From Amphibalanus amphitrite (Eukaryota > Arthropoda > Thecostraca > Balanomorpha > Balanidae), in the NCBI RefSeq assembly GCF_019059575.1, contig NW_024882872.1:62001-126000 (forward strand): DNA of 64,000 nucleotides, read 5' to 3'. Positions 35,545 through 63,495 of the stretch are shown here, piece by piece. A program made the position numbers and the translations under genes. The notes under the pieces were generated by a model, which searched no databases, had not been told where the DNA came from, and saw only the letters and a list, made by a program, of their open reading frames with translations. Positions within the stretch are counted from its first letter, which is position 1. The number at the start of each line of letters is the position of its first letter.

Positions 35545-36724
35545 CAGGTTTAATTATGTTTTTGTTTTATTTCCAAGACATACAAGTATCATTTTTGGAT
35601 TCAGGATGTCAAATAATGTAAGAATATGAAAACTTGATCTTTTAACAGTCACTCGGACTCGATGTATACTTTTACCGCGCCATGTTTTCACCGTCGTCCT
35701 GCATTTAAATGATGCCTGCTTTTATGACATGCTTAATGATTATCAAAGATATGTTCAAAAATCAAATGGCACCATCAGTGCAAACTGCATGCCACTATTT
35801 CAATACTTTTGTGACCTGAAGGGTGAAAGGGTAAAACAGCATTTTGATTTAGCATGCACTCTGCACACTGTGCTGCTACAGTGATTACCCTAGCTAGCAG
35901 CTTAACACCTGCTTTTCACCCTAATTCTTCTGCTTTCTCCTGAAAGGAGAAAGAATCAGTAGGTAGTGAGCAGTGCCAATGACAATGCATAGTTACAGCC
36001 GATATGGCATGCATCAACATGGAAATGGGTGGAGATGTGACTGCTCAGTGCTCATTCCACTACAGTGGCATGACTCCATGCTAATTGTTCAATAAGCAAA
36101 TGATGCAAGCAGGATCATGCAATGGTAGATATGTGTGACTCAGGATACCTAAGTACTGCAATGCTATTTTAGTTCAATGGGCCATTGATCTTAATCTTGC
36201 AGTACCTTCCTACCTCATTATATCCTTTTGCTCATTTAATATTGTTTTTCTCTTTATTTTACTAAATAACCGAAAAGTGGCCTATTTATTCCAGAATCCA
36301 GATTGGTTAGCACAGTAAGCTGAAGATAAGACCACTTTTGCATCCATTATGTAATGCCAATCAGGTACCTACCTTGCTAATTTTGAGGGAATGGATAGGT
36401 CATTTGCATTTCAATTTGAACTGCTAGCCATTTATGTTATGAAGTTATATGCAATAGGCTATTTGTGCAGTTCCATTCAACAATTCAATACTACATAACT
36501 GTTTCTGTTTGATGGCACTGCACTACCTGCCACATGTCACGATCATTGATCAATATTGAAATATTATCAAGGAGAACAGAAATATGTTTTTTTAATCATA
36601 CACAATGTATTGACCTTTTCTGGGGAACTATCATGGGTTAGTAACCATCATAACTATCATAATTATTCACCTTTGATTCATTTAGGAGTTATTGCAGACA
36701 AATGAACTTGAGACTTGGATCAGC
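35545..36724. other. Intergenic, upstream of RABL3
   Basis: The sequence is A/T-rich and no exon was recognised. Just before the RABL3 start there is a splice-acceptor-like TTATTGCAG ending at 36697. A 5' non-coding exon may therefore lie in this stretch, but none could be identified. Confidence 0.4.
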
Positions 36725-37405
36725 ATGAGTGACATGGAGACAGTGAAAGTGGTAGTGGTTGGTGACTCCGGTGTAGGCAAGACATCATTGGTACACCTAA
36801 TCTGCCAAAATGAGCCATGTGCCAAGCCATCGTGGACGATCGGCTGTGCGGTGGACGTCCGCATTCACGAGTTTCGCGAGGGCCTGCCGGAGCAGCGCAC
36901 GTACTGTGTCGAGCTGTGGGACGTGGGCGGCAGCGCGGCGCACGCCAACACCAGGCGCGTCTTCTACGGCGGCGCGCACGGCGTCATACTGGTGCACGAC
37001 CTCAGCAACCGCAAGACGCAGAACACGCTGGCCGGCTGGCTGGCCGAGGTGCTGAGCCGCGACGCCGGCGAGTCGGCCGCCTTCGACCCGGAGACGTTCG
37101 CCGGCTCGGCCACCGCCCAGCTGCCCGTGCTGGTGGTGGCCTGCAAGCCGGACCTGTCCGACCCGCGGCGCGCCGCCCACCTCCAGCGACAGGCGTCCCG
37201 GTTCGCCGACGAGTGCGGCGCCCAGGAGATCACCGTCGACTGTCTGAGCGCCCGCTCGCTGGCGGCCGGCAGCAGCAACGCCGTCAAGCTGAGCCGGTTC
37301 TTTGACAAAGTGATTGAGCGCCGCTACCAGCGGGAGCCGGTGACCCAGCACTGGGAGCGGCGCCGGCCCGGGCCGCCCGTCAGACACTCGTACCGCGACT
37401 ACTGA
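36725..37405 (+). CDS. RABL3: Rab-like GTPase RABL3, single exon
   Basis: This gene encodes 226 residues from ATG 36725 to TGA 37403. It is a small GTPase of the RABL3 family, which lacks the C-terminal prenylation cysteines of true Rabs and is linked to cell proliferation, RAS prenylation control and lymphoid development in vertebrates. Visible motifs are the P-loop GDSGVGKTS (residues 13-21), switch-region SWTIGCAVDVRIHEF (36-50), Walker B WDVGGS (65-70) and HDLSNRKTQNTL (91-102). A degenerate NKxD box reads ACKPDL (139-144), and the signature SSNAVKLSRFFDKVIE lies near the C-terminus. An earlier in-frame ATG is absent; the open frame extends to about 36692 without one. Length fits the family (about 236). 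The gene has no coding intron here. Confidence 0.94.
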   Translation: MSDMETVKVVVVGDSGVGKTSLVHLICQNEPCAKPSWTIGCAVDVRIHEFREGLPEQRTYCVELWDVGGSAAHANTRRVFYGGAHGVILVHDLSNRKTQNTLAGWLAEVLSRDAGESAAFDPETFAGSATAQLPVLVVACKPDLSDPRRAAHLQRQASRFADECGAQEITVDCLSARSLAAGSSNAVKLSRFFDKVIERRYQREPVTQHWERRRPGPPVRHSYRDY

Positions 37406-37933: not shown

Positions 37934-40900
37934 ATGGAGTCGGCCATGACGATGGAGACCGACCCGTGGCTGGAGAAGAAGTCGGACGGCCTGGAGCACC
38001 AGTACAGCGTGCGGGCCGACCAGCTGAGCCAATCGGTGGACGACATCGGCCTGCTGGCCACCGCCGAGCCCACTGAGCCGCCCGAGTCGCCCCAACCGCC
38101 GACCTCGCCATTCAAGGTACGGAGGGGAGGAGGGGCGAGGGCTGTCGGGAGGGATATTTTGTCTGTGTTGGGGGGATGGGGACTAGTGGAATGGTTGAGT
38201 GGTTGTGTGATAACGTAGATCAGCTGACTTCAGATAACGATATGTATTGCAAATTCACGCTTCCAATGATATTAACAGAAATTAAACAGAGGTTTCTCAA
38301 CGGTGCCTACTACTGCCACTACTTGACAAGGCAATCCGACTGAAACCATAGTAAGGACCATAGACGATAGCTTAGTGGCCAGAAAAGTCTCAGAAAAACC
38401 CGTACATAAAACACCGTCGGTAGGCCATATTGACGTCTGTCTCGTGTTTTCTCAGGTGACCATGTACCAGTGCGCCCAGTGTAAGACCACATTCAGCACG
38501 CTGGACATGTGTGTCAGCCACCAGTGCGGCCTGGCGGCGGACTCTGTGGTCGACTCGACTCAGCCGCAGTCCCCGGAGCAGCCGGCGCAGGGCGCGCCGC
38601 GGCAGTCGGAGGCCCAGCAGGCGTCCGGCCGCAGCCTGGCGCAGCAGCTGGACGACAGCCAGGGCAGCAGTGAGTGGGGGACAACAGCCAGGGCAGCAGT
38701 GAGTGGGGGACGACAGCCAGGGCAGCAGTGAGTGGGAGCAGAGACGGCGCACTGAGTGGGATAGAGACAGCACACTGAGGGTGGGCAGAGACGGCACACA
38801 GAGTGGGACAGAGACGGCACACTGACTGACGGCGGGCCGAGACGGCACACTGATTGGGGGCAGAGACGGCACACTAAGTGGGGGCAGAGACGGCACACAG
38901 AGTGGGGGCAGAGACGGCGCACGGTGTGGGGCAGAGACGACACACTGGGTGGGGCAGATACGGCACACTGAGTGAGGTGTTGTTTCGGAGATAGCTGCGA
39001 CGTTTGAGAAGCGTTCCAGGTTACCTGGTTGAACCTTGGACCTATTTAACTGCCGATATGTTAGCGGTAGGTAAATCAGCTTCTGAGGAGTTGCTCTGCT
39101 GCCCACTCCTACGCATACATTGCCGAGTGATTTACGATAGTGGCTCCTCGGCTCACTGTCGGACTGTATGACTGTCATTTACTTATGTTTCCAAGTGACA
39201 CACGATATCGGCACACTAAGCTTACTGCGCGACTGTCATTGTTCCAGATTACCGTTGGGGGCAGCACGACACATTGGCGCTGATGGAAATTCTCACTAGC
39301 AGCGCGGACAAGTTCAGCAACCCAAACATCAAGCGAAAGTTCATCTGGAAAGAGGCCTGTGACAAAATGCTAGAAAAAGGTTTCAGCATAAGCCAGGTAA
39401 CAATTTAATTGCCACGATTTTCACGATGACCGCATAATAGATATATGTGCTTTATTAACAATATGTTTATGTCTCACTAGCAGCTGTTACACCACTGTGT
39501 CATCACAGGCAACGAGTTTCAGAGTCAGGGCTTAGTGTTTTGCTTGTTTCACATTTTCACGTTATCGCTAATTTTCCGGAAATTATCCCTACGTTTCCTA
39601 TGTAGTTCTCAGACAAAGGCACTGTTTGACATTTTACAGCTGGCGTTCCACTTCTGAAGCTCATCGTGATGTGCCATTATCCGATAATGACGTTGCCCTT
39701 CTCGCCTGCAGTTACAATGCGAGAATCGCTGGAAGACGCTGAAGGCCATGTGGCGCAAGTCGCAGGCCTCCAGCTCGTCGCCGGCCTTCTTCCGTGAGAT
39801 GTGTGAAATCGCCGAGCAGTACCCGCAGCTGATGGTGGACAGCAGCCTGGGAGGCGGCGACACCGGCCGCGTCGACCGAGCGACCGGTGAGGCGACTCGG
39901 AAGGCAGTGGCTAGTGTTGGCCTGCTTCCTCCTAAGCGCTAATTTGTCTGAGTACGCCACTGCCCGCTATTGTGGGATCGTTCTTGCTACGAGATCTAAC
40001 ACTTGGTGAAACCGGCACTTCCTGAATATCCCGAATAAGCCGCGCATAGTTGATATCTAATCTTGATATTATGACACTGGCTCTGGCTTCTATAGGAGAC
40101 CAATTATTTGTCATGTCAGCTATCAAGTAAGCTCACAATGCAGTTATAGATTAACCCGCGCCCTGGTGGGGGGGGGGCTATTTCCCCCCCCCCTCCAGAC
40201 TTTTCGATATATCTCCAGAACCGCTGCGCCGATCGTCACCAAACTTTCAGTACCCTCCCGGACATCAATTTTACACATTGTGACCAAATTTTTTTTCCAA
40301 AGGCTATGATAGGTTGGCCGGAAATGACGTCAGAGTGACGTCATGTTCTGCCATTTTCGACCCAAAAAAGGGTTTCCCGGGAAGAGCTGTCAGGCCTATA
40401 GCTTTGCAGATACAGAAAAACGATGAAGCATAAAAGCTGTAGAATTGACAGGGCTACAAAACTGCTATCTCGGATTTTTGAAATTTTTGGATTTTGACCC
40501 CCAAAAATAAAAAATAGATTTTTGAATATAATAGCCGAAAAATCCAAAAAGTTTTTTGAATTTCGCAAAAACCGGAATATATGTGATAGTCCTTACCGCC
40601 TTCTATCCACATACCAAATTTGAGATTGATACCTCTTTTTTTGGCGAAGTTATAGCGAAAAAAACGGTTCAAAATTGATGACGTCAAATTTTCAAACTCA
40701 ATTTTTAGCAATTCTAGACCCCGTAGCGCAAAACAAAGACCACCATTAGACTCCCCGTGACGAGCTGCATCGAATCAATACCCATTGTATGCAAAACTAT
40801 CAACTTTAAAATTTGACCTTTTTTGACCTGACCTTGACCTGACCTTCACCAGAAAGTGACCTAAGCCGTACCTGATAGTCTTATAACCAACACCATTGAG

Positions 40901-42504
40901 TTGGAAATGAAAAATAGGCCATAAAACATGCATCGCACAACCTTAGTACCTAAAGTTAGGTTCATGTGACCTGACCTGTGACCCTTGGTGACCTGACCTG
41001 GTAATGTCAGTGACCTCTTATAGCAACATATGTACTAGGCGACTGACGCCCTATCGCTGATTCTCGACAAAATGCGTTTTCTTCGGTGTTATAGCGCATT
41101 CCCTAGATGACCCGTGAACGGTGAAACATTTCATCTTTGACCTGACCTGTGACGTCATCGGTGACCCCGAGGTCAATGAAATTTGGTTTCTTTCGACAAA
41201 TTTGACAGGCCTTTCGAACGCCGTTTGAATTTCGCGGATCCGTCCAGTAGTTTCGGAGATACGAGGGGGGGGGGGCAAAAAATAGCCCCCCCCCCACCAG
41301 GTCGCGTTATAAACAGACCCCACCAGGGCGCGGGTTAAGTTATATGAAAATTATTGAGCGTATCCAGCACCATGTATGCACCACACTTTCACAGGAAATA
41401 TCCACTCACTCTTCCATGGGTTTTAGTGAAAAGTCGCGCTTTCCAGCTAAATAACACGCTGTTCACCCTTGTCAGTCCAGTGAAGGTTATCACACCGCTT
41501 TCCAGCCCCCTCCCTCCCCATGAGCTCGTTGATACTGAACACTGTGCACGCCCTGTCCAGTGCCGGCAGGGCACGTGAAGACCAACTGGACCCGCGAGGC
41601 GTCGCTGACAATGCTGGCGCTGCTGAAAGCGCGCGCCGCCGACTTCTCAGATCCTAGCATCAAACGGCGCGCCCTGTGGACAGATATCTCCGACGCGATG
41701 CGAGACATTCACATGGAGTATACGCCAGAACAGTGCGAGGGACGCATGAAGACGCTGCTCCAAGCATACAAGTTAGTAACGACGGCGTGTTTGGTGTGCA
41801 GAAGGGGTCGTTCGTGGTTCGTGTAATCGTTAAGTATCGGACTAGGAAAGTGACGAGGTGGCGTTTTTAGAAAAGGGATCAATGATCAGTAGGTGAACGC
41901 CCATCTTGTTTGAAGTCGTCTTTCCCACCCAGTGATCATATCTTGTGAAACCTAGTCAAAATCGTTTTATCCTAAATCTTGTCGTTCTCTCAGTCACACG
42001 AGTCCTCTCTGACGGCGTGTTTCGCTGTGCCGCAGACGGGCGCAGACGCGGTGGGACCTGACGGGCGAGGGCGCCGAGTCGGACTGCTACTACCAGGTGG
42101 ACGAGCTGGTGCAGCTGATCCCCGAGCTGGCCGGCAGCGCCGCCGGACGGGCCGCCGCCGCCGTCGACGCCAGTCTGGCGCCGGGCACCGGCAGGAAGGT
42201 GACGGCGGCCGGCCCGCGGCGGCGCCGGGCCGGCCGCGCCGCGCGCCAGCGCGACCTGGTCACATGGCTGGAGAACTGGCTGCAGGAGCAGCGCCGCTGG
42301 GACGAGGGTGTGCAGGCTGTGCTGCGCTCCCAGCACGCCGAGCGGCTGCGCGTGCTGACCGAGATCCGGGACGAGCTGCGGGCGGGCGGCGCGCGTGTGC
42401 CCACCACGCGGCCGCCGCCGCCACTGCCGGCGCTGCCCCAGATCAAACACGGAGTTAGTCCGTCACAGACAGACAGCGTGGTGGCACAGGTGTTCCTGAC
42501 GTGA
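37934..42504 (+). CDS. Protein with zinc-finger-like motif and two Myb/SANT-like domains, six exons
   Basis: The coding exons are 37934-38116, 38456-38669, 39248-39396, 39712-39886, 41570-41771 and 42036-42504, in phase with GT-AG borders. They give 463 residues. The N-terminus (1-61) is acidic. A Cys/His motif, CAQCKTTFSTLDMCVSHQC (67-85), looks like an atypical zinc finger. Two trihelix-type Myb/SANT-like DNA-binding domains follow: the first at about 133-205 (RWGQHDTLALMEIL, then CENRWKTLKAMWRK across an intron), the second at about 241-320 (TNWTREASLTMLALL, CEGRMKTLLQAYK). The C-terminus has a basic patch RRRRAGR near 369 and a helical QRRWDEGVQAVLRSQHAERL segment. Such domains occur in transcription factors and in proteins derived from PIF/Harbinger partner genes. 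A nuclear DNA-binding role is inferred; I do not recognise the exact ortholog. The exon 2 donor is duplicated in tandem (see findings). Confidence 0.85.
38640..38985 (+). repeat. Tandem repeats across exon 2 donor and into intron 2
   Basis: Three copies of a 29-bp unit (ACAGCCAGGGCAGCAGTGAG core) begin in exon 2 at about 38651 and run to about 38737. They are followed by a degenerate CAGAGACGGCACACTGAGTG repeat of about 25-30 bp up to about 38985. Open minus-strand frames across it are repeat artefacts. Confidence 0.8.
40151..41338. mobile_element. TTAACCC-end inverted-repeat element in intron 4
   Basis: The left end is TTAACCCGCGCCCTGGTGGG and the right end is the reverse complement of the same 20 bases. 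Both are followed inward by C or G runs of about 10. AGGTCA/TGACCT words cluster at 40818-41010 and 41139-41180. The GTTATA motif on both sides may be part of a target duplication, but the register is unclear. Size is 1,188 bp and no transposase is encoded. Confidence 0.8.
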
Positions 42505-45202: not shown

Positions 45203-46400
45203 TTTAACCCTCGCCGGCCGAGAAGAAGGGGTGAATGCCGCCACCATGTATTTTTTTTTTTTTGCGGTAGCTCAAAGCACACTGATGATAGAAGGCTGAC
45301 ATTTCATATGCCTTGCATTTGATTCACGCCGGATCATTTGACATCAACCACGTTTTCAGGTCAGGTCACTTAACCATGGCGTCTTAACCCTCGCCGGCCG
45401 AGGGGGGGGGGGCGGGTGCCGCCCCCAATAGGGTTTTTTTTCGCGATAGCTCCGAACACGCTGGCGATAGAAAGCTGAAACTTGGCATACCTAACATTTG
45501 ATTCAAGCCGGATCTTTTGACACCAACCGCATTTTGGGTCAGGTCAGGTCACTGACCTATGGCGTCATAAGTGAGCCTCTGCACGATCTTCAGATGTCGC
45601 AACTTCGCAACGCCTTCACTGCCAGAGGAGATGTCACAGGGAAATGAAACTTGCAGGATCTAGTATCCATTATGAGTCTCACAGCTTGTATATCTCGGAT
45701 TTTTCCTAAAGGTCATATGAGGTCAGGTCATTTTCGTGACCTCACCATTAGGTATAAGCCAATGGGGAAAAATGAAAACTGCTGTTCTGGCGCCGGGAAC
45801 GATCTCCAACTACCTCAAGCACACAAAATCGTGATTTGATGCACTCCTTGCTTGCAAGGTTAGATGCGTCACTTTTGCAATGTTGACCTTGCGTGACGTC
45901 ATTTATGACGTCACTAAGGTGATAGGAGTGCTTCGTCAATAACTCCCGATCAAAATGAGCTAGCCAGTCGGGACAGCCATCTTTGGACTTTGCAAGCTTG
46001 GCGAATCAAATGTTATGCAACATGTCCTCCTTTCAACAGCTTCGTGACCTGTGTTGCCCTAACATGACATTGACCTCAGGTAAACATTCAAAATTGCTTC
46101 ACCTAAACAAAAAAGCATATAAATCGACGCGTCTGAGAACAGAAAACACGATTGCATCGAAATGACGATAATGCGACCATTTTTGCAAAGTTATTTACCA
46201 AAAACCGATCGAATGCCTTGGGGCCCTTGACCTGCCCTAAGAGGTCACTGATATTTTAAAATGGGGTACCAGTCGCTGCGTCACGTAACGAAGCAAGCGC
46301 TCGTTTTTTTCCGCGAGGCTCTAGCAGCTAGCTCAATTATAGGAGCTAAACATGGGGTTGGGGGATCGCTCCCTTCTCACTCACTATTTGGCCGGGGTAG
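45203..46400. repeat. TTTAACCCTCGCC-end repeats, tandem starts
   Basis: TTTAACCCTCGCCGGCCGAG occurs at 45203 and, as CTTAACCCTCGCCGGCCGAG, at about 45384. Each is followed by a T-rich GCGGTAGCTC / GCGATAGCTC segment and an AGGTCAGGTCACT cluster. From 45868 the sequence is homologous to the centre of the nested element at 4780-5450 (GTTGACCTTGCGTGACGTCA and onward). No gene is seen. Confidence 0.6.
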
Positions 46401-48805: not shown

Positions 48806-48968
48806 TGTGATGTATTATCCCCGAACGTTGAGTCTGGACATAGCTAACACACGGCACAACACGAGCGTCCACGGACATGTCACGCCATGGTCGTCACTCT
48901 CAGCCAACTGCTAGTCAGCTGGCCGTTCCAGAGGCTCTCAACGCTGGTAGAGCGGCTACGGTACAACA
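48806..48968 (-). repeat. 3' LTR of the Gypsy element
   Basis: The 163-bp LTR has inverted dinucleotide ends (TG...CA) and is identical by eye to 54606-54768. It is very short for a Gypsy LTR. Confidence 0.93.
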
Positions 48969-49107
48969 CCCTCCGCCCCTATAACATAACATGAACATTT
49001 AAACCAACGAAAATAGCTGTTAGCAAACATTTAGACAAACGAAACTAGCTGCTAGCACTTCCTGGCTAAAACAAACGCCGGCTTGGCATGGACAGCTCCC
49101 GCCAGCT

Positions 49108-49440
49108 CTACCGGTATCTGATCGGCACGTTTATGGTCCGTTTTGACCGGCGCAGAGGCTCGGTCGGCTCAGGCCGCTCGTTTTGAGCCGCTCCGGCCTC
49201 CGCCTCGTGCTCTGGCTCGTTCTCTCTCTCCTCCTCCTCTCCTCTCTCTTCCTGTCCTCCCTCTCCACTCCCGCCGTCTCGGAGGTAGCCCCCACCGGGT
49301 GGGTGCTGACGCTCCCGCGAGAAAGATGCCTGATTCGCCGGGAGCTGATACTGCTGCTGTTGTGCTGCTGCCGGTTCTGTCGCCTGCTGCTGTGCTCGGC
49401 CGGCGGCGGGGAGCAGCTGGTCGGCGTGGCGCGCCCACAC
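49108..49440 (-). pseudogene. Displaced original 3' end of gag-pol
   Basis: In the minus frame this continues the integrase C-terminal region (ARHADQLLPAAGRAQQQATE) into an acidic Glu/Gly-rich tail ending RRSKRTINVPIRYR. The same 127 bp at its start also occur at 49951-50077 in the main frame. It is therefore the natural end of the polyprotein, cut off from the rest by the inserted segment. Confidence 0.85.
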
Positions 49441-49957
49441 GTCTGTGTTGTACTGTGTACTGGCAGCGCTGATCTGTTTCGCCGGCTCGCTCGTGTTGGC
49501 GCGCGCGCAGGCGGGTCAAAGTTCGGATGTGCCGGCGGCCGGCAGCGACCAAGGCCATCTGCAGCGGCCGCCGGGCAGTGGGGGTCAGGCGGAGGGGAGG
49601 ATCGGGTTTGCGCGTCGTTCGGTGTGCAGGTGTCGACCGCGGCAGTGGAAATACAGTTCCGGCTTACAGATTCACACTCACCGTGGACAACAGGGCTCTG
49701 TCACGGATACTCAGCCCCGAGCGCGACCTGCCCGGCCTCTCAGCGGCACGTCTTCAGAGGATCGCCATGGAGTTGGCGGCGTACCAGTATGACGTGGAAC
49801 TGCGCAAAACGGCAGACATGGCTCTCGCTGACAGTCTGTCTCGGATGGCGCTGCCGGATAGCGAGCAGGAGCAGACGGCAGCAGAGGCGGACACCAGCGG
49901 CCTGGACTGCCACCTGATGTTTATGGACGGTGCGGGCCCGCCGCTGACGGCCCGCGA
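49441..49957. other. Inserted segment in Gypsy element: foreign 227 bp plus inverted RNase H copy
   Basis: 49668-49958 is the exact reverse complement (by eye) of 51113-51403, which encodes the RNase H-integrase spacer. 49441-49667 matches no other part of this element. On the plus strand, that part reads LYCVLAALICFAGSLVLARA in an open frame from a TTG, which resembles a signal peptide but lacks an ATG. The insert is flanked by the 127-bp direct repeat 49314-49440 / 49951-50077. Confidence 0.85.
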
Positions 49958-52900
49958 GAAAGATGCCTGATTCGCCGGGAGCTGATACTGCTGCTGTTGT
50001 GCTGCTGCCGGTTCTGTCGCCTGCTGCTGTGCTCGGCCGGCGGCGGGGAGCAGCTGGTCGGCGTGGCGCGCCCACACGGCCCCACCGACGTCCACCTGAT
50101 ACGATACGGGGCCCGTGACGCCGATCACCTGGCCGCGTCGCCAGCGCTGAGGTCCAGCATACGTCCGCGCCCACACGGCCTGACCGACCTGAAACTCGCG
50201 CGGGCGTCCCCCGGCCGCTTCTCTCTGGTCCTGCTGGCTGTCCGTTACGTCACGAATGATGCTGGGGTGCAGACGATCCAGCCTGGTGCGGATCGGGCGT
50301 CCGAACATTACCTCCGCCGGCGGCCGACCTGTGACCGCGTGTGGAGCTGTCCGGTACGCGATCAGCACCTTCTGCACACGTTGATGCAGCGAGCCGCCGT
50401 CCCGTGCGGTCGCTCGGAGCCCGCTCTTCAACACACCGACAGCTCGCTCGGCCGCGCCGTTACTGGCTGGGTGGTACGGCGCCGTGCGGATGTGCCGAAC
50501 GCCGTTGTTGGAGAGGAAGATCCCAAACTCCGTCGACGTGAACTGAGGTCCGTTATCGGTTACGACTTGGTCTGGGATTCCGAATCGCGCAAACAGCTCC
50601 CTGAGCTCCTCAACGGTCCGCCCGGCGGACGTCGTTGGCATGATGATGGCCTCCACCCACTTGGTGTGACTATCGCACACCACCATCAGGTACTTGTTTT
50701 CCACCGGCCCCGCGAAATCGACATGGATTCGCTGCCACGGCCCTGACGTGGGCTCCCACGGGTGGAGTGTCGCTCGGGGTGGAGCGCCGCGCTTCTCAGC
50801 GCATGAGTGGCAGCCCCGTGCCATGGCCTCCAGGTCGGCATCGAGACCGGGCCACCACAGGTACCGCCTCGCCAGCTGTTTCATTTTGGACCCACCAAGG
50901 TGTCCAGTGTGTAGCTCCTGTAGCACCCGCTCTCTGAGTCTCTGGGGTATCACCGCCCGTCCGCCCCAGAGGAGCACGCCCCGGTCGGTGGACAGCTCCG
51001 TCTCGCGCTGTCTGTAGGGGGCCAGCTCCGGCTCCGTCACTGATGGCCATCCGTGTCGGACATGCGACAGTACCCTGGCCAGCAGTGGGTCACGTCGGGT
51101 GCCGCTTTCGAGCTCGCGGGCCGTCAGCGGCGGGCCCGCACCGTCCATAAACATCAGGTGGCAGTCCAGGCCGCTGGTGTCCGCCTCTGCTGCCGTCTGC
51201 TCCTGCTCGCTATCCGGCAGCGCCATCCGAGACAGACTGTCAGCGAGAGCCATGTCTGCCGTTTTGCGCAGTTCCACGTCATACTGGTACGCCGCCAACT
51301 CCATGGCGATCCTCTGAAGACGTGCCGCTGAGAGGCCGGGCAGGTCGCGCTCGGGGCTGAGTATCCGTGACAGAGCCCTGTTGTCCACGGTGAGTGTGAA
51401 TCTCCTCCCGAACAGGAATCGATGGAACCGTCTGAGTCCATACTGCACACCGGTCGCTTCCTTCTCAACCTGTGCGTAGCGCCTCTCAGTCGGTGTCAGC
51501 GTCCTCGACGCAAACATGATTGGTCGCTCCGTGCCGTCGGGCATCTGATGCAGAAGGGTCGCGCCGACCCCCGTGGAGCTGGCGTCCGTGACCAGCTTCA
51601 GCGGCAGGCTGGGGTCGTACCTAACCAGCACGCGCCCGCTGGCCAGCAGCCGCTTCACTGTAGCGACCGCAGCGGAGCACTGCGGCGTCCACCGCCACGG
51701 TGTGCCGCGCTTGAGCAGAGCGTACAGAGGCGCGAGCGTCGTGGCGAGCCCCGGCAGGAGGCGGCTGTAGTAGTTCACCGATCCCAGTAGGGATCGGAGC
51801 TGCTGTACGTCTCGCGGCTCCGGCGCGTCCAGGAGCGCCGTTGTGCCGTCCTCCTCCGGTCTGATGCTGTCTGCAGTGATCCTCCACCCCAGGAACGATA
51901 CTTCCCTGGCCAGGAACACGCACTTGGACCGCTCCAGTCTCAGCCCGTTGCGTTCCATTCGATCCAGCGCCCGATCCAGGCGCCTCAGCAGCTCCTGTTC
52001 GCTGTCGGCTGCGATCAAGCAGTCGTCCATGTAGCACACGCAGCCGTCCAGTCCCTCCAGGATCTTGTCCATAGCCTGCTGGAACAGGAAACCGCAGTTA
52101 GCGATTCCGTACGGCATTCGAATCATTCTGAACGATCCGCGGTGTGTCGTCACGGTGGTGAGGTCACGTGACTCCTGGTCCAGCTCCATGTGTTCGTACG
52201 CCCGACGGATGTCCAGTTTGGCGAACACTCGGCCCTTGATGTTCGCGAACAGGTCCTCCGGCGCCGGGAGCGGGTACGGCGTCACCATGAGCTGCGGGTT
52301 CACAGTTAGACTGTAGTTGGCGCACAGTCTGACCTGACCGGTCGGCTTCAGCACCGGCACCAGCGGCGTTCCCCAGCCGGTGGGCGCCTGCTCCGAGTCG
52401 GTCTTCTCCGCGATTCCCTCGCGAACCCAGCGCTCCAGCTCTCTGTCGACCAGGGGTAGGAGCGCGTACGGCACCGGCCTAGCCTTCTTGTACACTGGGC
52501 GAGCGCCGGGCTTCAGTGCCAGGTGGGCCTTCACAGTCATTTTGCCCACACCGTCCGCAAACACTGACTCGTGCTTCTTGATGACGGTCTCCGGCGTCAG
52601 TCTCGGACCTGCCTCCGAGGGACCGCTGACCATGTGTACCGCTCGCCAGTCCAACTGCAGCTGGCGGAGCCAGTCACGTCCCAGCAGCGGTGTCGTTTCC
52701 GGCCGGTCACAGATGACCAGGCGCAGGGACCGAGTCTGACCTGCGTGCTCGACTTGCACGGTCGTTTCTCCACGGAGAGGCACCAGTTGTCCCGTGAATG
52801 TCTGCAGTCTCAGGTCTGACGCTCGCACGCACATTCCCGGTATCTTTGTGTCCCTGCCGACAATCGTCACTGGTGAGCCGGTGTCGACTAGCATCCTGAT

Positions 52901-53977
52901 TTCTCGCCCGTTTATCCGTACTGAGACGAGAGGAAGGTCCGCTCTCTCACCCCGTATGTCAATCTTCAGGACACCGCTCTCCAGTTGGTTGTCCTCCAGC
53001 CACCGTCCGCTGTCTTCTGTCAGGTGATCCACAGCGCGCTCCGGGCACCTCCGCTGCAGGTGAGTGTGGGAGCCACACCGGTAGCAGCGCCGGATCGCCG
53101 TCTGGCGTGTGCTCTGGTCCTGCCGTGGTTGACTGGCTCGGCCCCGACGTCCCGACTGAGATGCGGCCTGGTTCCGCCGGTACTCTCCGGGCGGCGGGCC
53201 GTCCCCGTCTGCGAGCTGGCGAGGACTGCTGCCCGCGTGCTGGTGCGTGCTGCTCCTGCCACCACCGCCGCGCCCCCGCTGGAGAGTCGGGCAGTCTCTC
53301 TTCCAGTGCTGCTGCGACCCGCAGTTAAAGCACTGTCCTCGTCGAGGCTGGGCTGACCTGCCCGCCATTGCCACAGCGTTCACCATCGGCTCCACACTGC
53401 CGGGCGCCGTAACTGCCGGCGCCGACTGGCCTCCTCCCACCTGGGCGCACAGCTGCCGCATGTCTCTGTAGGCCCGTGCGGCTCGGCGAACGTTTTCCAG
53501 AGTGAGCTCCTTTCCCCTGCTCGCCGTCTCTTGGAGGAGCTTTTCCCGCAGTCCTGGGCTGCTGCCGACTACACACCGGTCTCGTAGTTCACGGTCCGTT
53601 TCTGCAGCCGTGTAGCCGCAGCGCAGCGCTTGGACGCGCAGCCGCCCGAGGAACTGCTCGAAATCTTCCTCCGTTCGCATTGTCATTTGATGGAACTCGG
53701 CTCTCTCCGTCACAGTGTTCCGGACTGGGGCCAGGTACGTAGTCAACTTTTCCTTCAACTTCTCGAACTCATTTCCCTCCCCCGCCGGCTCGGGCAGGGC
53801 CTCGCTGAGGTCCGCTATATCGGGCCCCACGAGGTACTGTAGCAGCGCGCATTTCCGCTCCGTTTCTCTGACATTGGCCGCGATCAGGTAACGCTCCACA
53901 TTCCGTAGCCATTTTTCGAAGTCTTCTCCCGGTCGGTATTGTCCTACCGCCGACAGCTGCATTCCTGGCAGCTCCAT
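49754..53977 (-). CDS. Gag-Pol polyprotein of the Gypsy element (chimeric C-terminus)
   Basis: This is one uninterrupted frame of 1,407 residues from ATG 53977. The order of domains is Gag capsid-like (1-180); two CCHC zinc knuckles, at about 216-229 (CFNCGSQQHWKRDC) and 298-311 (CYRCGSHTHLQRRC); aspartic protease LVDTGSP (about 363); reverse transcriptase with YMDD (649-652); RNase H VTDAS (about 796); and integrase with H1023/H1026/C1056/C1059 and the D1087, D1141, E1177 triad. The protease-RT-RNase H-integrase order defines Ty3/Gypsy. The last roughly 65 residues are read from the inverted copy (antisense of the RNase H region) and are not native. Gag and Pol are fused without a frameshift. 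All core motifs look intact, so activity in cis or trans cannot be excluded. Confidence 0.93.
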   Translation of the reverse strand: MELPGMQLSAVGQYRPGEDFEKWLRNVERYLIAANVRETERKCALLQYLVGPDIADLSEALPEPAGEGNEFEKLKEKLTTYLAPVRNTVTERAEFHQMTMRTEEDFEQFLGRLRVQALRCGYTAAETDRELRDRCVVGSSPGLREKLLQETASRGKELTLENVRRAARAYRDMRQLCAQVGGGQSAPAVTAPGSVEPMVNAVAMAGRSAQPRRGQCFNCGSQQHWKRDCPTLQRGRGGGGRSSTHQHAGSSPRQLADGDGPPPGEYRRNQAASQSGRRGRASQPRQDQSTRQTAIRRCYRCGSHTHLQRRCPERAVDHLTEDSGRWLEDNQLESGVLKIDIRGERADLPLVSVRINGREIRMLVDTGSPVTIVGRDTKIPGMCVRASDLRLQTFTGQLVPLRGETTVQVEHAGQTRSLRLVICDRPETTPLLGRDWLRQLQLDWRAVHMVSGPSEAGPRLTPETVIKKHESVFADGVGKMTVKAHLALKPGARPVYKKARPVPYALLPLVDRELERWVREGIAEKTDSEQAPTGWGTPLVPVLKPTGQVRLCANYSLTVNPQLMVTPYPLPAPEDLFANIKGRVFAKLDIRRAYEHMELDQESRDLTTVTTHRGSFRMIRMPYGIANCGFLFQQAMDKILEGLDGCVCYMDDCLIAADSEQELLRRLDRALDRMERNGLRLERSKCVFLAREVSFLGWRITADSIRPEEDGTTALLDAPEPRDVQQLRSLLGSVNYYSRLLPGLATTLAPLYALLKRGTPWRWTPQCSAAVATVKRLLASGRVLVRYDPSLPLKLVTDASSTGVGATLLHQMPDGTERPIMFASRTLTPTERRYAQVEKEATGVQYGLRRFHRFLFGRRFTLTVDNRALSRILSPERDLPGLSAARLQRIAMELAAYQYDVELRKTADMALADSLSRMALPDSEQEQTAAEADTSGLDCHLMFMDGAGPPLTARELESGTRRDPLLARVLSHVRHGWPSVTEPELAPYRQRETELSTDRGVLLWGGRAVIPQRLRERVLQELHTGHLGGSKMKQLARRYLWWPGLDADLEAMARGCHSCAEKRGAPPRATLHPWEPTSGPWQRIHVDFAGPVENKYLMVVCDSHTKWVEAIIMPTTSAGRTVEELRELFARFGIPDQVVTDNGPQFTSTEFGIFLSNNGVRHIRTAPYHPASNGAAERAVGVLKSGLRATARDGGSLHQRVQKVLIAYRTAPHAVTGRPPAEVMFGRPIRTRLDRLHPSIIRDVTDSQQDQREAAGGRPREFQVGQAVWARTYAGPQRWRRGQVIGVTGPVSYQVDVGGAVWARHADQLLPAAGRAQQQATEPAAAQQQQYQLPANQASFSRAVSGGPAPSINIRWQSRPLVSASAAVCSCSLSGSAIRDRLSARAMSAVLRSSTSYWYAANSMAIL

Positions 53978-54004
53978 GGCTGTTGTCCGGTGGAGCTCCC
54001 GCGA

Positions 54005-54262
54005 TAGGTCCGCTGTAGCCTCCTCGATCGGTCCGCTGAGTACCCTTGATCGGTCCGTTCAGCCCCCTCGATCGGTCCGCTCAGCCCCCTCGATCGGTCC
54101 GCTGAAGCCTCCTCGATCGGTCCGCTGTAGCCTCCTCGATCGGTCCGCTGCAGCCCCCTCGATCGGTCCGCTACAGCCCCCTCGATCGGTCCGCTCAGCC
54201 CCCTCGATCGGTCCGCTCAGCCCCCTCGATCGGTCCGCTACAGCCCCCTTGATCGGTCCGCT
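54005..54262. repeat. CTCGATCGGTCCGCT minisatellite in Gypsy leader
   Basis: About ten copies of CCTCGATCGGTCCGCT with CAGCC or GTAGCC spacers stand at 22-24 bp spacing, just upstream (in the element sense) of the gag ATG. This lies between the primer-binding site and gag, in the transcript leader. Confidence 0.88.
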
Positions 54263-54605
54263 AGTCTCCGCGGCCGGTCCGCCGGTTCGCTGCAGCGCTG
54301 CGGAGCCGGGCGACAAAAGGTGTAGTTTGAGAACCTCTGGCGTCGAACCGCCAGGCACCGCCTCAAACCGCCTCAAACCAGATTCAGCACCGCCCGCAGA
54401 ATCTCTGGCGCACTGCCAATCGCTACGATGGGCACAGCCGGCGCTTGCCAGCGACCGACCAATCACAAGCCGCGACACATCCGATGCGTTGTACGCCTGA
54501 TCCAGTCTGAGTCCCGAAGGCCAAAATTGAATTCCCGAGCCAACCACTGTGCTCCATCTTGAAAGTTATGCCATGCCAAGCTCCAATCTGATCTTCGTCG
54601 CCAAG

Positions 54606-54768
54606 TGTGATGTATTATCCCCGAACGTTGAGTCTGGACATAGCTAACACACGGCACAACACGAGCGTCCACGGACATGTCACGCCATGGTCGTCACTCT
54701 CAGCCAACTGCTAGTCAGCTGGCCGTTCCAGAGGCTCTCAACGCTGGTAGAGCGGCTACGGTACAACA
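54606..54768 (-). repeat. 5' LTR of the Gypsy element
   Basis: This is identical by eye to 48806-48968. On the minus strand it is followed by CTTGGCGACGAAGATC, the presumed primer-binding site (complementary to a tRNA 3' end; the tRNA identity was not checked). Confidence 0.93.
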
Positions 54769-54891: not shown

Positions 54892-54902
54892 TCAAAACTG
54901 TA
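54892..54902 (+). repeat. Left 11-bp target-site duplication of foldback element
   Basis: TCAAAACTGTA stands here and again at 62173-62183 in direct orientation, immediately outside the inverted ends. Confidence 0.88.
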
Positions 54903-55064
54903 CGTCCATCAATTGAGCAGCAGTTTGATATTCGCGAATATCAAACTAAAAATTCGATATTCGGACGGGGAACGCAATAACTCAAGAACCAGTGAACCGA
55001 TTTTGATGAAACGACCCTCATTCGATTCCTCGTTCCTCATTGCAGGTTGACAGCGATTTTCAGG

Positions 55065-58000
55065 TCACTAGGTCATGACCTTCAAGGTCAAGGTCAAGGT
55101 CAAAGGACGGGGAACGCTCTACAGCCTAAAGTTACCGTCCGATTGGCTTGTAAATGGTCTCAATCGATTCCCCGACCCCGATTCCAGGTTGACAGCGATT
55201 TCCAGGTCACTAGGTCATGACCTTCAAGGTCAAGGTCAAGGTCAAAGGACGGGGAACGCTCTACAGCCTAAAGTTACCGTCCGATTGGCTTGTAAATGGT
55301 CTCAATCGATTCCTCGACCCCGATTCCAGGTTGACAGCCATTTTCAGGTCACTAGGTCATGACCTTCAAGGTCAAGGTCAAGGTCAAAGGACGGGGAACG
55401 CTCTACAGCCTAAAGTTACCGTCCGATTGGCTTGTAAATGGTCTCAATCGATTCCCTGACCCCGATTCCAGGTTGACAGCGATTTCCAGGTCACTAGGTC
55501 ATGACCTTCAAGGTCAAGGTCAAGGTCAAAGGACGGGGAACGCTCTACAGCCTAAAGTTACCGTCCGATTGGCTTGTAAATGGTCTCAATCGATTCCTTG
55601 ACCCCGATTCCAGGTTGACAGCGATTTTCAGGTCACTAGGTCATGACCTTCAAGGTCAAGGTCAAGGTCAAAGGACGGGGAACGCTCTACAGCCTAAAGT
55701 TACCGTCCGATTGGCTTGTAAATGGTCTCAATCGATTCCCTGACCCCGATTCCAGGTTGACAGCGATTTCCAGGTCACTAGGTCATGACCTTCAAGGTCA
55801 AGGTCAAGGTCAAAGGACGGGGAACGCTCTACAGCCTAAAGTTACCGTCCGATTGGCTTGTAAATGGTCTCAATCGATTCCTTGACCCCGATTCCAGGTT
55901 GACAGCGATTTTCAGGTCACTAGGTCATGACCTTCAAGGTCAAGGTCAAGGTCAAAGGACGGGGAACGCTCTACAGCCTAAAGTTATCGTCCGATTGGCT
56001 TGTAAATGGTCTCAATCGATTCCTTGACCCCGATTCCAGGTTGACTGCGATTTTCAGGTCACTAGGTCATGACCTTCAAGGTCAAGGTCAGGGTCAAAGG
56101 ACGGGGAACGCTCTACAGCCTAAAGTTACCGTCCGATTGGCTTGTAAATGGTCTCAATCGATTCCTTGACCCCGATTCCAGGTTGACAGTCATTTTCAGG
56201 TCACTAGGTCATGACCTTCAAGGTCAAGGTCAAGGTTCGCGAATATCAAACTAAAAATTCGATATTCGGACGGGGAACGCAATAACTCAAGAACCAGTGA
56301 ACCGATTTTGATGAAAAGACCCTCATTCGATTCCTCGTTCCTCATTGCAGGTTGACAGCGATTTTCAGGTCACTAGGTCATGACCTTCAAGGTCAAGGTC
56401 AAGGTCAAAGGACGGGGAACGCTCTACAGCCTAAAGTTACCGTCCGATTGGCTTGTAAATGGTCTCAATCGATTCCCTGACCCCGATTCCAGGTTGACAG
56501 CGATTTCCAGGTCACTAGGTCATGACCTTCAAGGTCAAGGTCAAGGTCAAAGGACGGGGAACGCTCTACAGCCTAAAGTTACCGTCCGATTGGCTTGTAA
56601 ATGGTCTCAATCGATTCCTTGACCCCGATTCCAGGTTGACAGCGGTTTCCAGGTCACTAGGTCATGACCTTCAAGGTCAAGGTCAAGGTCAAAGGACGGG
56701 GAACGCTCTACAGCCTAAAGTTACCGTCCGATTGGCTTGTAAATGGTCTCAATCGATTCCCTGACCCCGATTCCAGGTTGACAGCGATTTTCAGGTCACT
56801 AGGTCATGACCTTCAAGGTCAAGGTCAAGGTCAAAGGACGGGGAACGCTCTACAGCCTAAAGTTACCGTCCGATTGGCTTGTAAATGGTCTCAATCGATT
56901 CCTTGACCCCGATTCCAGTTTGACAGCGATTTTCAGGTCACTAGGTCATGACCTTCAAGGTCAAGGTCAAGGTCAAAGGACGGGGAACGCTCTACAGCCT
57001 AAAGTTACCGTCCGATTGGCTTGTAAATGGTCTCAATCGATTCCTTGACCCCGATTCCAGGTTGACAGCGATTTTCAGGTCACTAGGTCATGACCTTCAA
57101 GGTCAAGGTCAAGGTTCGCGAATATCAAACTAAAAATTCGATATTCGGACGGGGAACGCAATAACTCAAGAACCAGTGAACCGATTTTGATGAAAAGACC
57201 CTCATTCGATTCCTCGTTCCTCATTGCAGGTTGACAGCGATTTTCAGGTCACTAGGTCATGACCTTCAAGGTCAAGGTCAAGGTCAAAGGACGGGGAACG
57301 CTCTACAGCCTAAAGTTACCGTCCGATTGGCTTGTAAATGGTCTCAATCGATTCCCTGACCCCGATTCCAGGTTGACAGCGATTTCCAGGTCACTAGGTC
57401 ATGACCTTCAAGGTCAAGGTCAAGGTCAAAGGACGGGGAACGCTCTACAGCCTAAAGTTACCGTCCGATTGGCTTGTAAATGGTCTCAATCGATTCCTTG
57501 ACCCCGATTCCAGGTTGACAGCGATTTCCAGGTCACTAGGTCATGACCTTCAAGGTCAAGGTCAAGGTCAAAGGACGGGGAACGCTCTACAGCCTAAAGT
57601 TACCGTCCGATTGGCTTGTAAATGGTCTCAATCGATTCTCTGACCCCGATTCCAGGTTGACAGCGATTTCCAGGTCACTAGGTCATGACCTTCAAGGTCA
57701 AGGTCAAGGTCAAAGGACGGGGAACGCTCTACAGCCTAAAGTTACCGTCCGATTGGCTTGTAAATGGTCTCAATCGATTCCTTGACCCCGATTCCAGGTT
57801 GACAGCGATTTTCAGGTCACTAGGTCATGACCTTCAAGGTCAAGGTCAAGGTCAAAGGACGGGGAACGCTCTACAGCCTAAAGTTACCGTCCGATTGGCT
57901 TGTAAATGGTCTCAATCGATTCCTTGACCCCGATTCCAGGTTGACAGCGATTTTCAGGTCACTAGGTCATGACCTTCAAGGTCAAGGTCAAGGTCAAAGG

Positions 58001-59685
58001 ACGGGGAACGCTCTACAGCCTAAAGTTACCGTCCGATTGGCTTGTAAATGGTCTCAATCGATTCCTTGACCCCGATTCCAGGTTGACAGCGATTTTCAGG
58101 TCACTAGGTCATGACCTTCAAGGTCAAGGTCAAGGTCAAAGGACGGGGAACGCTCTACAGCCTAAAGTTACCGTCCGATTGGCTTGTAAATGGTCTCAAT
58201 CGATTCCTTGGCCCCGATTCCAGGTTGACAGTCATTTTCAGGTCACTAGGTCATGACCTTCAAGGTCAAGGTCAAGGTTCGCGAATATCAAACTAAAAAT
58301 TCGATATTCGGACGGGGAACGCAATAACTCAAGAACCAGTGAACCGATTTTGATGAAAAGACCCTCATTCGATTCCTCGTTCCTCATTGCAGGTTGACAG
58401 CGATTTTCAGGTCACTAGGTCATGACCTTCAAGGTCAAGGTCAAGGTCAAAGGACGGGGAACGCTCTACAGCCTAAAGTTACCGTCCGATTGGCTTGTAA
58501 ATGGTCTCAATCGATTTCCTGACCCCGATTTCAGGTTGACAGCGATTTCCAGGTCACTAGGTCATGACCTTCAAGGTCAAGGTCAAGGTCAAAGGACGGG
58601 GAACGCTCTACAGCCTAAAGTTACCGTCCGATTGGCTTGTAAATGGTCTCAATCGATTCCTTGACCCCGATTCCAGGTTGACAGTCATTTTCAGGTCACT
58701 AGGTCATGACCTTCAAGGTCAAGGTCAAGGTTCGCGAATATCAAACTAAAAATTCGATATTCGGACGGGGAACGCAATAACTTAAGAACCAGTGAACCGA
58801 TTTTGATGAAAAGACCCTCATTCGATTCCTCGTTCCTCATTGCAGGTTGACAGCGATTTTCAGGTCACTAGGTCATGACCTTCAAGGTCAAGGTCAAGGT
58901 CAAAGGACGGGGAACGCTCTACAGCCTAAAGTTACCGTCCGATTGGCTTGTAAATGGTCTCAATCGATTCCTTGACCCCGATTCCAGGTTGACAGCGATT
59001 TTCAGGTCACTAGGTCATGACCTTCAAGGTCAAGGTCAAGGTCAAAGGACGGGGAACGCTCTACAGCCTAAAGTTACCGTCCGATTGGCTTGTAAATGGT
59101 CTCAATCGATTCCTTGGCCCCGATTCCAGGTTGACAGTCATTTTCAGGTCACTAGGTCATGACCTTGAAGGTCAAGGTCAAGGTTCGCGAATATCAAACT
59201 AAAAATTCGATATTCGGACGGGGAACGCAATAACTCAAGAACCAGTGAACCGATTTTGATGAAAAGACCCTCATTCGATTCCTCGTTCCTCATTGCAGGT
59301 TGACAGCGATTTTCAGGTCACTAGGTCATGACCTTCAAGGTCAAGGTCAAGGTCAAAGGACGGGGAACGCTCTGCAGCCTTAAGTTACCGTCCGATTGGC
59401 TTGTAAATGGTCCCAATCGATTCCCTGACCCCGATTCCAGGTTGACAACGATTTCCAGGTCACTAGGTCATGACCTTCAAGGTCAAGGTCAAGGTCAAAG
59501 GACGGGGAACGCTCTACAGCCTAAAGTTACCGTCCGATTGGCTTGTAAATGGTCTCAATGGATTCCTCGACCCCGATTTCAGGTTGACAGCCATTTTCAG
59601 GTCACTAGGTCATGACCTTCAAGGTCAAGGTCAAGGTCAAAGGACGGGGAACGCTCTACAGCCTAAAGTTACCGTCCGATTGGCT
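55065..59685 (+). repeat. Left arm tandem array (142/169-bp units)
   Basis: Each 142-bp unit opens with AGGTCACTAGGTCATGACCT, then three overlapping AAGGTCA repeats, GGACGGGGAACGCTCTACAG, GTCTCAATCGATTCC and GGTTGACAGCGATTT. The 169-bp units (near 56211, 57090, 58253, 58706, 59159) switch after the AAGGTCA run to TTCGCGAATATCAAACTA, the sequence of the element's own end. Two diagnostic bases (CCCTGA versus CTTGA, and TTTCC versus TTTTC) often alternate between neighbouring units, giving a 284-bp higher-order period in parts. Confidence 0.93.
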
Positions 59686-62144
59686 TGACCTTGAAGGTCA
59701 TGACCTAGTGACCTGGAAATCGCTGTCAACCTGGAATCGGGGTCAGGGAATCGATTGAGACCATTTACAAGCCAATCGGACGGTAACTTTAGGCTGTAGA
59801 GCGTTCCCCGTCCTTTGACCTTGACCTTGACCTTGAAGGTCATGACCTAGTGACCTGAAAATCGCTGTCAACCTGGAATCGGGGTCAAGGAATCGATTGA
59901 GACCATTTACAAGCCAATCGGACGGTAACTTTAGGCTGTAGAGCGTTCCCCGTCCTTTGACCTTGACCTTGACCTTGAAGGTCATGACCTAGTGACCTGG
60001 AAATCGCTGTCAACCTGGAATCGGGGTCAGGGAATCGATTGAGACCATTTACAAGCCAATCGGACGGTAACTTTAGGCTGTAGAGCGTTCCCCGTCCTTT
60101 GACCTTGACCTTGACCTTGAAGGTCATGACCTAGTGACCTGAAAATCGCTGTCAACCTGCAATGAGGAACGAGGAATCGAATGAGGGTCTTTTCATCAAA
60201 ATCGGTTCACTGGTTCTTGAGTTATTGCGTTCCCCGTCCGAATATCGAATTTTTAGTTTGATATTCGCGAACCTTGACCTTGACCTTGAAGGTCATGACC
60301 TAGTGACCTGAAAATGACTGTCAACCTGGAATCGGGGTCAAGGAATCGATTGAGACCATTTACAAGCCAATCGGACGGTAACTTTAGGCTGTAGAGCGTT
60401 CCCCGTCCTTTGACCTTGACCTTGACCTTGAAGGTCATGACCTAGTGACCTGAAAATCGCTGTCAACCTGGAATCGGGGTCAAGGAATCGATTGAGACCA
60501 TTTACAAGCCAATCGGACGGTAACTTTAGGCTGTAGAGCGTTCCCCGTCCTTTGACCTTGACCTTGACCTTGAAGGTCATGACCTAGTGACCTGAAAATC
60601 GCTGTCAACCTGGAATCGGGGTCAAGGAATCGATTGAGACCATTTACAAGCCAATCGGACGGTAACTTTAGGCTGTAGAGCGTTCCCCGTCCTTTGACCT
60701 TGACCTTGACCTTGAAGGTCATGACCTAGTGACCTGGAAATCGCTGTCAACCTGGAATCGGGGTCAGGGAATCGATTGAGACCATTTACAAGCCAATCGG
60801 ACGGTAACTTTAGGCTGTAGAGCGTTCCCCGTCCTTTGACCTTGACCTTGACCTTGAAGGTCATGACCTAGTGACCTGAAAATTGCTGTCAACCTGGAAT
60901 CGGGGTCAAGGAATCGATTGAGACCATTTATAAGCCAATCGGACGGTAACTTTAGGCTGTAGAGCGTTCCCCGTCCTTTGACCTTGACCTTGACCTTGAA
61001 GGTCATGACCTAGTGACCTGGAAATCGCTGTCAACCTGGAATCGGGGTCAGGGAATCGATTGAGACCATTTACAAGCCAATCGGACGGTAACTTTAGGCC
61101 GTAGAGCGTTCCCCGTCCTTTGACCTTGACCTTGACCTTGAAGGTCATGACCTAGTGACCTGAAAATCGCTGTCAACCTGGAATCGGGGTCAAGGAATCG
61201 ATTGAGACCATTTACAAGCCAATCGGACGGTAACTTTAGGCTGTAGAGCGTTCCCCGTCCTTTGACCTTGACCTTGACCTTGAAGGTCATGACCTAGTGA
61301 CCTGAAAATCGCTGTGAGCCTGGAATCGGGGTCAAGGAATCGATTGAGACCATTTACAAGCCAATCGGACGGTAACTTTAGGCTGTAGAGCGTTCCCCGT
61401 CCTTTGACCTTGACCTTGACCTTGAAGGTCATGACCTAGTGACCTGGAAATCGCTGTCAACCTGGAATCGGGGTCAGGGAATCGATTGAGACCATTTACA
61501 AGCCAATCGGACGGTAACTTTAGGCTGTAGAGCGTTCCCCGTCCTTTGACCTTGACCTTGACCTTGAAGGTCATGACCTAGTGACCTGAAAATCGCTGTC
61601 AACCTGGAATCGGGGTCAAGGAATCGATTGAGACCATTTACAAGCCAATCGGACGGTAACTTTAGGCTGTAGAGCGTTCCCCGTCCTTTGACCTTGACCT
61701 TGACCTTGAAGGTCATGACCTAGTGACCTGGAAATCGCTGTCAACCTGGAATCGGGGTCAAGGAATCGATTGAGACCATTTACAAGCCAATCGGACGGTA
61801 ACTTTAGGCTGTAGAGCGTTCCCCGTCCTTTGACCTTGACCTTGACCTTGAAGGTCATGACCTAGTGACCTGGAAATCGCTGTCAACCTGGAATCGGGGT
61901 CAGGGAATCGATTGAGACCATTTACAAGCCAATCGGACGGTAACTTTAGGCTGTAGAGCGTTCCCCGTCCTTTGACCTTGACCTTGACCTTGAAGGTCAT
62001 GACCTAGTGACCTGAAAATCGCTGTCAACCTGCAATGAGGAACGAGGAATCGAATGAGGGTCTTTTCATCAAAATCGGTTCACTGGTTCTTGAGTTATTG
62101 CGTTCCCCGTCCGAATATCGAATTTTTAGTTTGATATTCGCGAA
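59686..62144 (-). repeat. Right arm tandem array, inverted
   Basis: This carries the same units as the left arm on the opposite strand, about 15 of 142 bp with one internal 169-bp unit near 60130-60296. The switch of orientation at about 59685 (GATTGGCTTGACCTTGAAGG) has no spacer and breaks a unit at a shared CTTG. Confidence 0.93.
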
Positions 62145-62172
62145 TATCAAACTGCTGCTCAATTGATGGACG

Positions 62173-62183
62173 TCAAAACTGTA
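62173..62183 (+). repeat. Right 11-bp target-site duplication of foldback element
   Basis: TCAAAACTGTA matches 54892-54902 exactly, in direct orientation. Confidence 0.88.
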
Positions 62184-63412: not shown

Positions 63413-63495
63413 CACGCGGCGCTCCCAGGATTCGAACTCACGACCCTCGGATCCGTAGCCCGATACGCTACCGACTGCGCTACCGAGGACCGCGC
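63413..63495 (-). ncRNA. tRNA-like sequence (SINE head or tRNA pseudogene)
   Basis: On the minus strand there is a box A-like TAGCGCAGTCGG, an anticodon arm with five pairs around a CTACGGA loop (ACG at the anticodon positions, which would be arginine) and a box B AGTTCGAATCC. The acceptor stem does not pair and the T stem has mismatches. This fits a tRNA-derived SINE or a decayed tRNA gene better than a working tRNA. Confidence 0.6.

Follow-up and report, generated by a model that had tools for sequence, protein, structure and literature searches.

A repeat element of 7270 bp was identified at positions 54903–62172 of a 64,000-nucleotide stretch of the Amphibalanus amphitrite genome (NCBI RefSeq assembly GCF_019059575.1, contig NW_024882872.1, positions 62,001 to 126,000 of the forward strand), referred to below as the window. 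The element, in which no genes were found, is very probably a non-autonomous cut-and-paste foldback transposon that was moved in trans and whose internally repetitive inverted repeats have grown into a satellite-like array. The structure had been reported in a reading made from the sequence alone, and was confirmed to be real. As the long inverted ends and the flanking direct repeat are exact, the flanks dissimilar and the arms repetitive, and as coding capacity is lacking, insertion of a foldback element is the best reading. The sequence-only reading had claimed such an insertion, and this claim is upheld in part: the ends, direct repeat and arms favour it, but a single copy is present in the window. 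The element is filed here only under the structural kind foldback, and we infer its superfamily and mobility.

Ends, arms and flanks of the element

The interior was found to be tandem repeat throughout and consists of two head-to-head arrays, with 41 full 142-bp units, six full 169-bp units and two 158-bp ends (Table 1); the opposed arrays of 142/169-bp units described in the sequence-only reading are thus present. The long inverted repeats are internally tandem-repetitive, as in foldback elements, with arms of 4.8 kb on the left and 2.5 kb on the right that adjoin via a common CTTG belonging to both cut units, and no spacer separates them, again as had been described. The unit number is given as assembled and may be wrong. 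No open reading frame (ORF) of at least 150 amino acids (aa) was found in the element, and the longest stop-to-stop frame is 96 aa, in agreement with the earlier statement that the element holds no transposase. A coding element was rejected on the length of this frame.

When the two ends were paired inward, no mismatch was found for 109 bases, the first two mismatches being at positions 110 and 271, and 157 of the 158 positions of the terminal inverted repeat are paired. The description of the ends as exact inverted repeats was therefore sound, and their length is above the 100 bp that terminal inverted repeats of Mutator-like elements exceed (PMC5225508). The 20-base tip CGTCCATCAATTGAGCAGCA occurs at only two sites in the window, 54903 (+) and 62153 (−). 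A 26-bp perfect palindrome, AGTTTGATATTCGCGAATATCAAACT, occupies bases 20–45 of the head and is complete only at the two ends; no longer perfect palindrome was found in the window. The confinement of the tip and full palindrome to the two ends counts in favour of a foldback element. It also bears on an alternative in which repair of a staggered break, itself a source of target duplication, captured a satellite palindrome with no transposase involved; extrachromosomal circular DNA would be one possible origin of such a palindrome. Such a capture would suit the satellite-like body with its higher-order blocks and the single copy in the window, but the element terminates on either side at an identical base of a special terminal sequence (tip and full palindrome) that is absent from the other units. 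As matched special tips at both ends are not expected from random capture of an array, this origin is very unlikely.

Table 1. Coordinates of the component parts of the probable foldback element and its flanking repeats in the window
Feature	Position	Strand	Description
Left direct repeat	54892–54902		TCAAAACTGTA; or 9-bp CAAAACTGT at 54893–54901
Left arm	54903–59687	+	158-bp end, 26 x 142-bp, 5 x 169-bp, last unit cut
Left terminal 158-bp head	54903–55060	+
Left 26-bp perfect palindrome	54922–54947		AGTTTGATATTCGCGAATATCAAACT; starts at base 20 of left end
169-bp unit L10	56197–56365	+	Core and internal head copy without outer 28 bp
169-bp unit L16	57076–57244	+
169-bp unit L24	58239–58407	+
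169-bp unit L27	58692–58860	+
169-bp unit L30	59145–59313	+
Inverted arm junction	59684–59687		4-base overlap CTTG, no spacer
Right arm	59684–62172	−	158-bp end, 15 x 142-bp, 1 x 169-bp, last unit cut
169-bp unit R14 (right arm)	60142–60310	−
Right terminal 158-bp head	62015–62172	−	157/158 identical to left head
Right 26-bp perfect palindrome	62128–62153
Right direct repeat	62173–62183		TCAAAACTGTA; or 9-bp CAAAACTGT at 62174–62182

The direct repeat TCAAAACTGTA is present on both sides of the element (11 of 11 bases), and apart from it no similarity was found between the two 500-bp flanks at E up to 1. When pairs of distinct positions were drawn at random from 100–54000 of the window, 25 of 3,000,000 pairs matched over at least 9 bases and 7 over at least 11 bases. 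Helitrons are not known to produce a target-site duplication or to have long inverted repeats at their ends, and membership in this group was rejected as both long inverted ends and a flanking duplication are present.

The perfect 11-bp direct repeat claimed in the sequence-only reading is exact on both sides, but its length is ambiguous. If the ends are taken as CGTCC, the target-site duplication is 11 bp, whereas ends of ACGTCC, one base longer and with a complementary A/T pair, leave a 9-bp duplication, CAAAACTGT; an exact flanking duplication, as in foldback elements, is thus present with 11 of 11 bases, or with 9 if the ends are extended. As the boundaries remain complementary when shifted out by one base, the 11-bp duplication is not certain. 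By our own count, one chance match has to be assumed for a duplication of 11 bp and two for one of 9 bp, and with a single copy the choice between these lengths remains ambiguous.

Mutator-like elements are described with duplications in the range 8–10 bp (PMC5225508). It is plausible, though the lesser possibility, that the element is a foldback transposon of another superfamily, for example P-like or unclassified, which differs from the interpretation given above only in the superfamily. The foldback shape arises in several superfamilies, as Galileo is described with a P-type transposase and FB has been called P element-related, and a duplication read as 11 bp departs from the Mutator-like range (PMC5225508). 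However, a 7-bp duplication like that of Galileo requires end bases T and C, which are not complementary, so that the duplication expected in the P superfamily is not found, and the 9-bp reading fits both Mutator-like elements and FB as described (PMC5225508, PMC7642927, PMC8277862). Membership in Galileo itself was rejected on the duplication length.

Repeat units and their arrangement in blocks

Pairwise divergence among the 41 units of 142 bp averages 1.85% and amounts to 10 bases at most, and these units share with the 169-bp units a core, CAGGTCACTAGGTCATGACCTTCAAGGTCAAGGTCAAGG, and a box, GGACGGGGAACGC. Global alignment of the 142- and 169-bp units gave a score of 147.5 (shuffle maximum 21.5, n=200), and the more diverged middle alone gave 26.0 (shuffle maximum 8.5, n=500). 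Judged by these alignment scores, the two kinds of unit are homologous, also beyond the core and box. The 169-bp unit consists of the core followed by the terminal head minus its outer 28 bp, and the 169-bp consensus from base 40 is the same as the right head from base 29 (130 of 130 bases), with five of the six units matching the right head fully over this part and one differing at a single base. The break lies 3–4 bases off the centre of the palindrome AGTTTGATATTCGCGAATATCAAACT. The joint between core and head is identical in all six internal 169-bp units, suggesting most simply that it was formed once and then copied.

The order of variant units was examined using a letter code in which T is the head, H a 169-bp unit, A a 142-bp unit with T112C and T142C, q or p a unit with one of those two changes, D a unit with C136T and G137C, and B a unit of none of these types, some with other changes. 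The left arm reads T ABABABBD H AqpBB H AqABBBD H AD H BD H AB/ and the right arm T AqBABBABABBD H ABA/. All D units, five of the 41, directly precede a 169-bp unit, for which there are six such places (chance 8e-6). The A type accounts for seven of the eight units directly after a head or a 169-bp unit but 14 of 41 overall (chance 0.001). Both types were picked after the sequences had been inspected, and the chance values are therefore indicative. As variants recur in block order, the array appears to have grown in higher-order blocks, the simplest account being that blocks running from H and A to D were copied whole.

The 142-bp units contain 24 variants, of which 17 are singletons (12 in the left arm and 5 in the right), four are common to both arms and three occur within the left arm only. 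The four common variants and the 169-bp joint, which is also found in both arms, indicate that some of the block pattern had formed before the arms diverged, and the three left-only variants and 17 singletons indicate that the arms have changed apart since. It is quite possible, at somewhat less than an even chance, that a small element inserted first and its array expanded afterwards at the site; this alternative differs in timing alone and does not conflict with a foldback transposon. The separate changes in the arms (3 of 24 variants in the left arm only, 17 of 24 singletons) would fit such later growth, but the variants and joint common to both arms place part of the block structure before their separate history. 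The private variants also bear on whether the inversion or the array was misassembled. Near-identical tandem arrays are difficult to assemble; however, the singletons mark single units on both arms, and a false palindrome should mirror its flanks, which have only the 11-bp direct repeat in common. An assembly artefact is thus highly improbable.

The foldback interpretation suggests the following course of events. A trans-acting transposase, probably of Mutator-like type, would recognise the ends, excise the element and insert it, duplicating a target of 9 or 11 bp. The arms would have grown from the element's own end, with a subterminal stretch duplicated to give the 142-bp unit, as the homology of the units suggests, and an end without its outer 28 bp joined once into the array to give the 169-bp unit. 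The break would have fallen near the expected loop of a hairpin or cruciform, and opening of a hairpin or a stalled fork may have caused it. Unequal exchange or rolling-circle copying may then have increased the number of blocks of 169 + n x 142 bp, in keeping with the common block order, and the arms may have been joined without a spacer over the 4-base microhomology, either because any middle was deleted or through template switching. By analogy with Galileo, the repeats may serve as extra binding sites for the transposase (PMC3688188).

The element contains AGGTCA 285 times and TCAAGGTCA 138 times. The AGGTCA motif, which we take to be a nuclear-receptor half-site, is also frequent outside the element, with 100 occurrences in the rest of the window against ~25 expected from dinucleotides, about four times as many, and 49 of these 100 are grouped into 13 clusters, each with at least three. 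As the motif is common elsewhere in the window, it is not special to the element. Clusters of AGGTCA/TGACCT outside the element include those at 24645–25215, 40814–41170 and 45541–45737. A comparison of seven stretches with clusters revealed no clear relation to the unit. Weak matches of the 169-bp unit and of the end to positions 4339–4368 (30 bases, 76.7%, E 0.004, for the seven chosen stretches only) were not taken as homology.

A further-reaching interpretation is that the element is a mobile satellite, in which only its own end has been copied inward in higher-order blocks, with the tipless internal ends derived from a terminal palindrome opened near its centre, and which would carry AGGTCA-rich arrays around the barnacle genome and seed satellite loci and receptor-binding clusters. 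We consider this unlikely.

Comparison with described foldback elements

The sequence-only reading had compared the architecture to Foldback and Galileo, and arms built of tandem repeats do have described precedents in Tetris, Galileo, Tm1 and FB. The closest described case found was Tetris of Drosophila virilis (PMC4079207), a likeness by description. Tetris is likewise described with a foldback layout, no conserved ORF and tandem repeats inside its inverted repeats; its ~220-bp arm repeats and its outer domain have a 37-bp stretch in common, the repeats expand into satellite arrays, and its authors suggested Mutator on the ground of 8–10 bp duplications (PMC4079207). However, in Tetris the outer domain is reported to reach 866 bp and the arms 1,735 bp, and inner and middle domains are also present (PMC4079207), whereas the element described here has 158-bp ends, no middle, and higher-order blocks into which copies of the end are built, and both its arms are longer than the Tetris maximum and that of ~1.26 kb given for Galileo of D. 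mojavensis.

The Tm1 elements of root-knot nematodes are described with composite arms in which the repeat number varies between the ends, and with duplications of mostly 9 bp (45 of 53 elements have 8–10 bp); such ends can accompany a Phantom-like Mutator transposase (PMC3169594). Tm1 differs in its 13–15 bp repeats, 1–9 units per arm, asymmetric 7-bp tips and a transposase-bearing element of 2593 bp (PMC3169594). FB of Drosophila melanogaster resembles the element in its inverted ends and opposed tandem-repeat blocks in unequal numbers (2 versus 7 or 8 blocks in two copies), with a 9-bp (9–10 bp) duplication, but is described with 27–31 bp repeats in blocks of five, ends of 467–479 bp and, in two described copies, a middle region of 321–322 bp (PMC7642927, PMC8277862). 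One of these papers relates FB to the P element, whereas according to the other FB4 is more likely Mutator-like (PMC7642927, PMC8277862). Galileo, as described, shares long internally repetitive arms, and its first copies consisted of arms only (PMC3573991, PMC3688188); the THAP domain of its transposase bound sites in the arm repeats as well as ~70 bp from the end (PMC3688188). Galileo differs in belonging to the P superfamily, in its 7-bp duplications, and in having two or three repeats in the arms of up to ~1.26 kb (subfamily F of D. mojavensis) (PMC3573991, PMC3688188).

Two further systems are alike in single traits. Plant Mutator-like elements that carry multiple terminal inverted repeats have complete or almost complete ends repeated inside the outer end, like the end copies in the 169-bp units here, but the extra ends are described around other internal sequence, and the portion of the account available describes no satellite-like array (PMC3310237). 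Helitron-associated satellites of the Pacific oyster, also a marine invertebrate, are described with monomers of which some are 164–166 bp within a mobile element, but as a central array between distinct boxes rather than opposed arrays that reach the ends (PMC8268682). In a non-exhaustive search, an element made wholly of such repeats, with higher-order blocks and tipless internal ends, had no match among the few comparable descriptions, as far as the available parts of these accounts go. A literature search by the unit motifs returned no title concerning a transposon, though absence from print is not claimed. No match was found for three exact patterns in viral contigs, for the first 300 bases in phages (distant search) or in Rfam (gathering thresholds); as these collections are not meant for animal transposons, these results say little.

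Several points weigh against a foldback transposon of the kind proposed. No relatives of the element were found elsewhere in the window at E up to 0.01, and no second copy is present there. A middle domain is absent, unlike in Tetris (PMC4079207) and FB (PMC7642927, PMC8277862) as described. As FB has been read as P element-related, or FB4 as Mutator-like, the foldback shape leaves the superfamily unfixed, and a duplication of 11 bp would be longer than the Mutator-like 8–10 bp (PMC5225508). The block pattern has exceptions, at one of the six units before a 169-bp unit and one of the eight after a head or 169-bp unit. Folding of the first 73 bases gave only a modest gain over shuffles (z −1.75, with 9 of 200 shuffles as good). 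A strong terminal hairpin was rejected as a defining signal, as the fold is just modestly above shuffles.

On present evidence, the locus is a well-preserved example of a known foldback kind and introduces no new principle. It would add a crustacean case to the foldback transposons whose arms become satellite DNA, with the likely order of events, from end to unit, block and array, kept in one 7.3-kb locus. If further copies exist, they would make it possible to test directly whether satellites are seeded by transposons and how internal repeats relate to the ends that bind transposase.

Other features of the window

A Ty3-type retrotransposon with long terminal repeats (LTRs) is located at 48806–54768 and ends 134 bp to the left of the foldback element. 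Its 163-bp LTRs are 100% identical and flanked by the 5-bp repeats GATAC, its coding frame is on the minus strand, and it carries an inverted internal duplication (49668–49958 versus 51113–51403, 100%). Among 120 of the 239 matches to its Pol, the nearest named relative is from Amphibalanus amphitrite (63%), and another match reaches 83%. To the right, 1.2 kb from the foldback element, a transfer RNA (tRNA) gene, tRNA-Arg (ACG), is predicted at 63416–63491 (−).

A second inverted-repeat element was found at 4210–5912, with 30-bp perfect ends and arms of ~450 bp that are 69% alike; no clear flanking duplication was seen by eye, and its internal repeats recur at 45865–46051 and 46172–46325. Near-identical copies with tandem CCGACGTCGG motifs are present at 21185–21834 and 23257–23905 (98.8%) and at 24145–24454 and 25955–26264 (97.4%). 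A 73-bp tandem repeat at 24105–24243 contains GGGCTCGAATCCC, which we take to resemble a tRNA B box, and this may be a tRNA-derived short interspersed element.

Host genes in the window include a glutathione S-transferase-like homologue of 'failed axon connections' at 14002–15192, in which the best match of the frame 14203–15192 is Failed axon connections of Amphibalanus amphitrite (98% identical, 100% of the query covered), with the best Pollicipes match at 71%. An ETS-domain gene is found at 32379–33353, and a Ras-type small GTPase is encoded at 36686–37405. Between these, a short array of TAGGTTTG/TAGGTTGG-like units at 35205–35328 is vaguely telomere-like.

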